Assembly: GCF_000266885.1 (NCBI RefSeq)
Contig: NC_018020.1
Coordinates: 1,798,001 to 1,862,000, forward strand
Direction of reading: 5' to 3'
Length of the DNA stretch: 64,000 bases
Source: Turneriella parva DSM 21527
Lineage (GTDB): Bacteria; Spirochaetota; Leptospiria; Turneriellales; Turneriellaceae
This document shows, in pieces, positions 1,350-48,841 of the stretch (position 1 is its first letter; every line of letters starts with the position of its first letter). A program made the translations under genes and the position numbers. Under the pieces are notes generated by a model, which saw only the letters and a list, made by a program, of their open reading frames with translations, did no database searches and was not told the origin of the DNA.

Positions 1350-1509
1350 GGGACTGCGCGGCAGGTCGCAAAACGACGAATTTCAGGAAAAGTTCCGCGA
1401 TTTTCGAAGCGAAAATCGCTCTATGAACGGGCCAAGGCCCGCTTTTCCCGAATTTCGTCGTTTTGCTATAGCTCTAAAATTTCGAATACGGCGACCTGCC
1501 GCGCAGCCC
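1350..1509 (-). repeat. Nested-palindrome repeat, copy A (inverted relative to B and C)
   Basis: 160 bp element bounded by ~19 bp terminal inverted repeats (CTGCGCGGCAGGTCGC at the left, its complement at the right, with one extra base in the left arm). Inside lies a second ~24 bp inverted repeat (CAAAACGACGAA ... TTCGTCGTTTTG) around a GC-rich hairpin core. Copies B (7077-7235) and C (27965-28123) carry the same parts in opposite orientation. There is no ORF and no obvious target-site duplication. It fills most of the 1303-1641 gap between two divergent genes; nothing else was seen in that gap. Confidence 0.9.
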
Positions 1510-1641
1510 TTTTTTGTTGTCGTAAAGTCTGCCCCTGCCGCGTCGTCTGTAATATAGGAACAAAAGGGCGACCTGTCAGGCCTGCCGCAACCGCTGGGTT
1601 TGCGGGGTCGGGGCTGAGTGTTGTCCGGGGTAAAGGTACTC

Positions 1642-7063: not shown

Positions 7064-7076
7064 CCCCCACCCTTGG

Positions 7077-7235
7077 GGGCTGTGCGGCAGTTCGCCGCAA
7101 TTGAAATCTCAGCATTGTAGCAAAACGACCAAATTCAGGAAAAGCGGGCCCAGGCCCGTTCATAGAGCGAATTTCGCGGCGAAAATCGCGGAACTTTTCC
7201 TGAATTTGGTCGTTTTGCGACCTGCCGCGCAGCCC
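7077..7235 (+). repeat. Nested-palindrome repeat, copy B
   Basis: 159 bp with the same plan as copy C: terminal inverted repeats (left arm GGGCTGTGCGGCAG, diverged), inner 24-bp arms at 7121-7144 and 7194-7217 that pair perfectly, and a GGGCCCAGGCCC core. In the inner arms the pair that is G-C in copies A and C is C-G here (CGACC with GGTCG), a compensatory double change. It sits between two same-strand genes, starting 14 bases after the DUF721 stop. The frame of the downstream gene happens to be open through it. Confidence 0.9.
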
Positions 7236-7280
7236 AATTTTAGCATTGCAGCACCACCATTCTATACCGTTGTGGATTTC

Positions 7281-27896: not shown

Positions 27897-27964
27897 GACC
27901 GTCATTTTGGGGCGCCGAGACATGCGGTCAAATCAATAGTGGTACCTCAGCCCGCAGCCGGTTG

Positions 27965-28123
27965 GGGCTGCGCGGCAGGTCGCCAAATTCGAAATTTTAG
28001 GGCTATAGCAAAACGACGAAATTCGGGAAAAGCGGGCCTCAGCCCGTTCATATAGCGATTTACGCTTCGAAAATCGCGGAACTTTTCCTGAATTTCGTCG
28101 TTTTGCGACCTGCCGCGCAGCCC
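27965..28123 (+). repeat. Nested-palindrome repeat, copy C
   Basis: 159 bp. The terminal inverted repeats (GGGCTGCGCGGCAGGTCGC and complement) match perfectly over 19 bases. Inner 24-bp arms at 28009-28032 and 28082-28105 pair with one G-T. Core hairpin CGGGC-CTCA-GCCCG. It lies between the divergent rplU and SRPBCC genes and fills nearly half of that 354-bp gap; the rest holds only a probable ribosome binding site (AGGGGG) before 28251. Confidence 0.92.
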
Positions 28124-28250
28124 CTGCGCCCCGGTCAGAATAATTGGCTGTACAGACTACAGCGGCTGCCACAGCCTGCAGGCTGGTTTCGCATCGAAAT
28201 CCACCTGAATGCGCAATTAGACAGGTGGGTATGAAGCCTCAGGGGGATCT

Positions 28251-28808: not shown

Positions 28809-30869
28809 TCACGGCGCGCCCGCGAGCGGTTTGGTGCTGCCGATGAGTTCGAAATACCGAGCCTTCTCGAGATACATGTCGGCGACGCTGTCACCGGGAT
28901 TAATCTCGATCACCTGGCGAAACATCGCCTGCGCATCTGCAAAACGACGCTCGTGAAAACTCAAGAAGCCGCGTTCGAAGGCGCCGCGGGTTTTGTCGAG
29001 CATCTCGATCTGGTAATCGGGCATGCCGTCGAAAACCTGTAAAACAGTCACGGGTTGTTCTTTCCCTTTCACTTTAACCCGGGCGATCACCCGCGTCATG
29101 TACACGGTCGGGTCGGCAAGGTCATGAAACACACTTTCGCTGATCAGCACATCGGCGTCGAATTTCTTTGTTAAGGATTCAATACGTGAAGCGAGGTTTA
29201 CTGCATCAGAAATCACCGTCCCGTCCATACGCTCTTGCTCGCCGACTGTGCCGAGCATCAGCGCCCCTTTATGAATACCGATGCCAATACGTATGGGGTC
29301 GTAACCCGATTTCATGCGGTGGTGGTTATACTTGCGCACGGTCTGCTGCATCGTAATTGCCGCCTTAAGAGCCGACTCAGAATTTTCAGGAAACAGCGCC
29401 ATTATGCCGTCGCCCATAAATTTGTCGATGAAGCCATCGTGCGCGCGAATGATCGGACTCATGCGCTTGAGGTAAGAGTTGAGAAATTTGAAGCTGTCGC
29501 GCGGCGTCATTTTTTCTGAGAGGGTGGTGAAGCCGCGAATATCTGCGAACAGCACCGTCATGTCGCGTTCTGTGGCATCGCCCAGCGTGACCTGTTCGAC
29601 GCTGTCGCGGTCGAGAAGCTCGAGCATTCGCCTTGGAAAAAAACGGCTATAGGCGTCGGTCAGCCGCTTTTGCTTGTCGAGCGCCTGTTGCTGAATTCGC
29701 TCTTTGTCTTTTTTGAGCACGTTAATGCGATCGGCCAGTGCGAGCGAAAGCAAAATCACTTCAAGCGCGCTGCCGACAAGCATCGCGTTGACGAAGAAAG
29801 GGTTAGGGGGCAGCACGCCGCGCGTCGTCAGCGTAAATACCACCGTACCTGCAAGCATCACGATCCAGGCGGCGAGAAAATACCGGGCTGGTTTGTAATC
29901 GCGCCACCACGCCAGAACGGCGCTCGAGAGCAATGCGAGCACCCAGGGTATACCGAGTACGTTGGCTATCCTCACTGAGGTACCGGGGTCGAGCACGAAC
30001 GCGCTCAAGGCAACGCCGGTGCCGGCTGCGCCTACTGCGTGTGCGGCCAAATAGAGTGGCCTTGAAAGTTGTTTCAAATTGAGAAACAGCATCGCGAAGA
30101 TGATGCCAAAGCTCATTGCACTGCCCGCGAATATGGAAAACGCGCGGTTCTGCAGCCAGGGGCTCGCCGGCCAGAGAAGCTGGTACGAAATACCGTTGAG
30201 TGTGCCGGCAAGTATCGCAAATGAACCGATATAGCAGCAATAGAAGAGATATGCCGGTTCGCGCAGGCTAAAGAACAGAAAAAAATTGTAGAAGAACATT
30301 ACGGCGATGGTGCCGAAAAACATGCCCAGAAAATACTGCGAGACATGGTCGCTTTCGAGAGCCTGCGTCGCATCAGCGAGCGTGAATGCCAGATTGACGC
30401 TGCCCTTGGTCTGCAGGCGAATGTAATACCAGTCTGTTGAGCGCGGCGTTATCCAGAACGAAACCAGGCGGTGTTTCACGTCGCGCCGCGCGAAGTCGAT
30501 CATATCGCCCTGGGTGTTTTCATCGTAGCCGTTTTTTCCCGGTTCGTAGAGCGTGACGTAGTCGGTCATCGCGTAATCATGCCTCAGCATCAAACGCTCG
30601 GCGGTGGGTGTGAAGCGAAACCGCAGCCAAACAGGTTTTACGAAGAACCCGAGGTTGGCCTTATCTGCACTCGCAAACGCTGAGTCTGGCAGTTTTCGCA
30701 CGGTGGCAAGCGATGCCTCCCCGGTTTCGTCTTTGTAAAAATCCATCGACGAGCCCAGATTCAGCTGTTTCGTGCCAGTGCCCCAATCGATGGGCGATGT
30801 TGCAGCTGCAGCAGTTTTGCCTGCCAGCAAGCCGATCATCAGCATCTTCACCAGATTGAATTTCTTCAT
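28809..30869 (-). CDS. Class III adenylate cyclase with 7TMR-DISM sensor module
   Basis: 686 residues. A signal sequence and an extracellular beta-rich DISM domain (~40-170, RFRFTPTAERLMLRHDYAM) are followed by seven membrane helices (~185-385), a helical linker and a cyclase domain (~430-600): TVLFADIRGFTTLSEKM, DKFMGDGIMALFP and ISDAVNLASRIESL. Both metal-binding Asp and the transition-state Asn/Arg are present, and the Lys in DKFMGDG favours ATP as substrate. A C-terminal helical tail (FERGFLSFHERRFADAQAMF) looks like a single TPR. It probably makes cAMP in response to an extracellular carbohydrate or similar signal. Confidence 0.9.
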   Translation of the reverse strand: MKKFNLVKMLMIGLLAGKTAAAATSPIDWGTGTKQLNLGSSMDFYKDETGEASLATVRKLPDSAFASADKANLGFFVKPVWLRFRFTPTAERLMLRHDYAMTDYVTLYEPGKNGYDENTQGDMIDFARRDVKHRLVSFWITPRSTDWYYIRLQTKGSVNLAFTLADATQALESDHVSQYFLGMFFGTIAVMFFYNFFLFFSLREPAYLFYCCYIGSFAILAGTLNGISYQLLWPASPWLQNRAFSIFAGSAMSFGIIFAMLFLNLKQLSRPLYLAAHAVGAAGTGVALSAFVLDPGTSVRIANVLGIPWVLALLSSAVLAWWRDYKPARYFLAAWIVMLAGTVVFTLTTRGVLPPNPFFVNAMLVGSALEVILLSLALADRINVLKKDKERIQQQALDKQKRLTDAYSRFFPRRMLELLDRDSVEQVTLGDATERDMTVLFADIRGFTTLSEKMTPRDSFKFLNSYLKRMSPIIRAHDGFIDKFMGDGIMALFPENSESALKAAITMQQTVRKYNHHRMKSGYDPIRIGIGIHKGALMLGTVGEQERMDGTVISDAVNLASRIESLTKKFDADVLISESVFHDLADPTVYMTRVIARVKVKGKEQPVTVLQVFDGMPDYQIEMLDKTRGAFERGFLSFHERRFADAQAMFRQVIEINPGDSVADMYLEKARYFELIGSTKPLAGAP

Positions 30870-48795: not shown

Positions 48796-48841
48796 CCTCG
48801 CGCAGTAGGGGTAGGTTTAAACCTACCCCTACTGCGCGAGG
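48796..48841. terminator. 46-bp perfect palindrome, no loop
   Basis: Two 23-base arms (CCTCGCGCAGTAGGGG... and complement) meet at TTT/AAA, 9 bases upstream of the ispD ATG and 15 bases after the PIN-TRAM stop. Among the most perfect inverted repeats in the window. Confidence 0.65.

Follow-up and report, generated by a model that had tools for sequence, protein, structure and literature searches.

The Correia/NEMIS elements of Neisseria are about 100–155 bp long, carry long terminal inverted repeats (TIRs), lie between genes, fold strongly, encode no protein and are believed to depend on mobilisation in trans (PMC2229807, PMC10969869). Enterobacterial ERIC/IRU sequences are 127-bp intergenic palindromes with a strong fold and no assigned transposase, while the Rickettsia palindromic elements (RPE), at 105–146 bp, can lie within genes and keep the reading frame (PMC2229807). 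Palindromic as well are the REP/BIME sequences with RAYT and the TIRYT TIR families, some of whose TIRs begin with GGGG (PMC3733652).

The repeat described here, from the free-living spirochaete Turneriella parva DSM 21527 (Leptospiraceae; PMC3746428), resembles the Correia/NEMIS elements in all these traits, but its TIR measures 20 bp and starts with GGGG (24 bp and TA termini in Correia/NEMIS), its 4-bp target duplications have no fixed sequence and its core is a branched pair of hairpins. It is an intergenic, strongly folded palindrome lacking an assigned transposase like ERIC, which has a 7-bp TIR with TA ends and is unrelated in sequence and host. As in RPE, a copy can lie in frame inside a gene, although this applies to one case among 21, and the repeat has clear TIRs together with target duplications, features that have not been established for RPE. 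Unlike REP and TIRYT families, it has neither the GTAG/CGTC tag nor the GGGGWSAS motif nor a Y1 gene with these ends, and it is associated with 4-bp duplications. We interpret it as very probably a family of non-autonomous DNA transposons (MITEs) confined, in the collections searched, to the genus Turneriella, i.e., a new family of a kind already known, with a conserved fold that is unusually elaborate; a literature search returned no MITE of Leptospiraceae.

Layout of the element and its copies

The window, i.e., the whole 64,000-nucleotide stretch that was analysed (C1:1798001–1862000 of the 4,409,302-bp, two-contig T. parva genome), contains three copies that are ~86–94% identical in alignment (Table 1). 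A first-pass annotation had reported them as related, intergenic, two direct and one inverted, and nearly identical in length, all of which was borne out: the family register spans 161 columns, and this length is nearly constant in T. parva. The ends it gave were up to one base short of that register, and its terminal and inner inverted repeats are present, measuring 20 bp (not 19) and ~25 bp (not 24). Its GC hairpin core does hold hairpins, but two at the apex instead of one, separated by a linker of 8–9 nt, and it had overlooked a segment of ~25 nt. Read from its left end, the element comprises the TIR, this segment (on one arm only), the inner stem and the two apical hairpins.

Table 1 Coordinates of the three window copies and of the parts of the copy beside rplU (window numbering).
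Feature	Position	Strand	Evidence
Full-length element, 161 bp; rplU / gene 28251	27964..28124	+	Searches, family alignment; orthologous site unoccupied in the sister species G003
Left 20-bp terminal inverted repeat GGGGCTGCGCGGCAGGTCGC	27964..27983	+	Sequence, TIR scan
Asymmetric unpaired segment, this arm only, gives element polarity	27984..28007	+	Fold, alignment
Inner stem, 5' arm (GCAAAACGACGAAATTCGGGAAAAG)	28008..28032	+	Fold, covariation
Apical hairpin B (CGGGC...GCCCG)	28033..28046	+	Fold, covariation
Conserved multiloop linker TTCATATA; most copies TTCATAGA	28047..28054	+	Alignment
Apical hairpin A (GCGATTT...AAATCGC)	28055..28077	+	Fold, covariation
Inner stem, 3' arm	28082..28106	+	Fold, covariation
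Right 20-bp terminal inverted repeat	28105..28124	+	Sequence, TIR scan
Full-length element, inverted copy, between divergent genes; GST / gene 1618	1350..1510	-	BLAST, alignment, covariance model
Full-length element, divergent subfamily, between co-directional genes; DciA / beta-lactamase	7076..7236	+	BLAST, alignment, covariance model

In the 27964 copy the TIR is perfect over 20 bp (GGGGCTGCGCGGCAGGTCGC / GCGACCTGCCGCGCAGCCCC), and the element ends read GGGG...CCCC. The fold energy of this copy is −104 kcal/mol (z = −12 against shuffles), a second copy reaches z = −10.4, and folding the element as single-stranded DNA gives z = −13. The asymmetric segment carries more shared variation than every other region. 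The flanks of the copies are unrelated, so the copies do not stem from the single segmental duplication that could have explained them away.

Copy number, range and mobility

In T. parva, BLAST returned 46 matches, 18 of them full length (82–100%), and a covariance model found 21 full-length copies, next to some ten that are short or partial, the short forms being core-deleted elements of 55–67 bp and fragments. Further copies, whose absence would have spoken against a family, therefore exist, and the forecast of dozens to hundreds holds at its low end. Their distribution is uneven: three of the 21 lie in the window, many others at 1.30–2.16 Mb and none at 0.16–1.30 Mb. At C1:3870700–3870895 (L007 / L027), a 31-bp element-end remnant, GATA, a full element and GATA follow one another, i.e., two elements stand head to tail with a common duplication. 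Three tandem 116-bp units, 97% alike (L263:454–799, ~C1:3851453–3851798), each correspond to a half element with its right TIR, the outcome of one copy having multiplied in tandem at this locus. Another, unlike GC-rich repeat, CTCCTCGCGTGCTCGGGTCTGCGCGGCAAAGATCGCG, is spaced at intervals of 10–20 kb (C1:3602789, 3617871, 3637032, 3649785 and 3660109), and the GGGTCTGCGCGGCA repeats at 3.60–3.66 Mb were rejected as family members, being another sequence without a TIR partner.

Between five and seven homologous elements occur in each of the sister species G001 and G003, and none in G004–G006, which also belong to the genus. Of 296 Spirochaetota genomes drawn, only four, all of the genus Turneriella, gave matches, and across 48 scanned genomes of the class the TIR was confined to these. 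The genome MAG-291 (G002; records JAEUSA01) holds ~20 elements with a TIR virtually identical to that of T. parva. By BLAST, the cores fall into three separate groups on this one TIR: core T in T. parva, G001 and G003, and cores A (elements of 170, 191–193 and 213 bp) and B (213 bp) in MAG-291. Core A has the layout of core T, with both apical hairpins and the asymmetric arm, on a different stem sequence, and the T covariance model aligns to it with pairs swapped on both sides. One TIR serves at least three structured cores within one genus, and this TIR–core modularity is a main point of interest of the family. MAG-291 also contains 86-bp and 27–29 bp forms that retain the outer hairpin only. 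Elsewhere, an exact-TIR scan of 84,980 species yielded 97 stretches, which outside MAG-291 had no credible inverted partner and were set aside as chance matches in GC-rich DNA; searches of viral contigs and plasmids gave no hits.

Flanking direct repeats in MAG-291 peak at 4 bp, with exact repeats at 8 of 19 independent elements (8 of 20 listed, one contig being dropped as its locus is common to another contig) where shuffles give a mean of 0.5 (P < 5e-5), and with none at 5 bp. Their sequence varies (AACA, ATCT, GGCT, TTCT, GAGT, CTGT, CATT and GATA). Two contigs of this genome, C173 and C377 (L227, L230), share a flank up to the element and then diverge, the duplication being found only in C377, so that C173 probably reflects an assembly error at the repeat. 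The copies in T. parva are older: duplications survive as GATA at L007, ATAA at L208 and a 7-bp TAAATAA at L004, most copies have no 4-bp duplication, and none of the three window copies keeps an informative intact one.

Insertion polymorphism or empty sites were seen at three loci; the search for empty sites used ~1.9 kb of joined flanks from four of the 18 copies. In G003, the spacer between rplU and gene 28251 does not contain the window copy (54 vs 188 bp between conserved blocks), and an element of its own stands at the far end of gene 28251, where T. parva has none. T. parva copy 2 has an empty site in G001 and G002, and copy 4 has one in G003, with a single (C/T)AAATAA. Given exact 4-bp target duplications and empty sites in sister species, we consider mobility well supported, and together with the TIRs these observations uphold the first-pass proposal of a MITE-like element mobilised in trans. 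In G003, the 7TMR-DISM/guanylate cyclase gene (window 28809–30869) is missing from the orthologous position, and an element occupies the junction in its stead.

Prokaryotic MITEs are defined by features that include a length <500 bp and multiple copies (PMC10969869), bounds within which a 161-bp element with 21 full-length copies falls. The 20-bp TIR lies in the MITE range of ~4–30 bp, exact 4-bp target duplications, a MITE trait looked for at least in younger copies, flank 8 of 19 elements in MAG-291, three loci have empty sites, and the element has no transposase of its own, 161 bp being too short for a transposase-sized ORF. The T. parva copies are not A+T-rich (GC 0.50–0.59 vs 53.6% for the genome), a trait typical of MITEs and not defining, and a matching autonomous IS is likewise usual and not strictly required. 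The 4-bp duplication would fit a DDE transposase. Such an enzyme, acting in trans, would recognise the 20-bp TIR and, with a 4-bp stagger, place the element in non-coding DNA or, on rare occasions, within a gene whose frame is kept; the enzyme's own copy may have been lost from T. parva or may have diverged ends.

Covariation and the role of the fold

An alignment of 31 copies, which are related to one another and represent three species, was fitted to the structure and shows pairing in 95.5% of pair cells, with both sides altered in 34 of 53 pairs; none of 500 shuffles and no register shift came near the observed pairing. With MAG-291 added, 39 of 53 pairs are altered on both sides. Changes private to one T. 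parva copy break pairs in 28 of 46 events, compared to 1 of 11 for changes shared by ≥2 copies (P = 0.002), and across all 31 copies the figures are 58 of 97 private vs 6 of 45 shared (P = 2e-7). When private changes are one-sided, the pair is preserved in 9 of 34 cases (26%), vs 19.5% at random. Copies thus decay freely after landing, but spreading lineages retain the fold. Because private mutations break pairs at a random rate and shared ones nearly always keep them, the fold appears to matter for spreading, i.e., as a requirement at propagation, and not to serve the host once a copy is in place. As its loss from single copies is neutral after they have landed, the fold would be filtered at propagation, whether in transposition, replication or element formation. 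This retention along spreading lineages only is a further point of interest: with a fold inherited where lineages spread and decaying in stationary copies, the family lends itself to a clean natural experiment on the reasons why small mobile elements of bacteria are folded.

Palindrome arms are corrected by template switching, and such homogenisation during replication would mimic selection on structure. The covariation would then arise in an ordinary MITE whose inside is irrelevant, an account that rivals the fold filter only and is compatible with the MITE reading; we regard it as a real possibility, if somewhat the less probable one. Eight private two-sided changes in T. parva copies point in its direction, and arm correction could also have compensated older changes. 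However, template switching would not preserve the asymmetric arm, the 8–9 nt multiloop linker and the constant length, all of which are kept, and MAG-291 has the same two-hairpin layout on unrelated stem sequence.

The filter at propagation could also reach further, with mobility itself requiring both the branched hairpin fold and the TIRs, which we think rather unlikely. The element would in that case go through a stage as a folded single strand or a cruciform and yet be integrated at a 4-bp staggered cut, through an enzyme still to be paired with its ends. Cores T, A and B would then be alternative solutions to one structural requirement.

The mobilising enzyme and gene context

The first-pass annotation had called for an IS with matching ends, and none turned up among the IS families tested (TIR scans of T. 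parva and the class; IS ends of rve and DDE_Tnp_1). Throughout the complete T. parva genome, all 31 TIR matches (≤2 mismatches) lie in short elements or fragments, with no autonomous element and no TIR pair enclosing a gene. The one IS4-like gene of T. parva (PF01609) has ends TAGTGTTCGGTAGAAA, different from the element TIR, and the three multi-copy IS families of PF00665 (rve), with ends TGTAGCGACC, GGCAGATTCC and TGTAATAG, do not match it either. Orphan TIRs in MAG-291, considered as a possible autonomous copy, belong instead to hairpin-only forms of 27–29 bp or to half elements, or stand as a single isolated site immediately upstream of a long gene.

The REP-type alternative offered by the same annotation, in which REP/BIME-type elements are moved as folded single strands by RAYT (a Y1/HUH tyrosine transposase), draws on the palindromic, intergenic nature of the copies, the three Y1_Tnp genes of T. 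parva, the ability of each TIR to form a small CTGC-GCG-GCAG hairpin and the hairpin-only forms of MAG-291. The GTAG/CGTC tag is absent, however, from elements that end in GGGG...CCCC, and the Y1 genes lie between palindromes of their own (GTAGGGGTAGGTTTAAACC... and others), unrelated to the element, with no TIR-like sequence within 1.5 kb of those in T. parva. The 4-bp target duplications of variable sequence, which Y1 enzymes are not known to produce, largely refute this reading, and we judge it highly improbable. At window positions 48807–48834, a perfect palindrome, GTAGGGGTAGGTTTAAACCTACCCCTAC, is the same as those flanking the Y1 (RAYT-like) gene at C1:4295927 (L243), and these palindromes look like a separate GTAG-type REP family of T. 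parva; other Y1 genes have different palindromes, GCCACGGGTTTAAACCCGTGGC and CCACCGAATTAATTCGGTGG.

By ORF inspection, about nine or ten T. parva copies are between divergent genes, about seven between co-directional and one between convergent genes, and one is inside a gene, with mixed orientation relative to the neighbours. Five lie within ~3 bp of a stop codon, which is what one would see if insertions persisted only where they disrupt nothing, 92% of the genome being coding. The annotation's other suggestion, a host-kept, cis-acting structured RNA or DNA module (terminator, mRNA stabiliser or attenuator) duplicated around the genome, could appeal to these stop-codon neighbours, the very stable fold and the strong covariation, but has very little probability in view of the empty sites in sister species, the use of both orientations with about half of the copies between divergent genes, private mutations that break pairs as often as random ones, a best Rfam score of 23.7 bits against a cut-off of 80 (no family) and one copy that is translated inside a gene. 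That copy, at C1:1515934–1516094, is in frame within an 809-aa open frame, an insertion made possible because 161 + 4 = 165 bp, i.e., 55 codons, and paralogues of the frame in T. parva, G001 and G006 are without the 55 residues.
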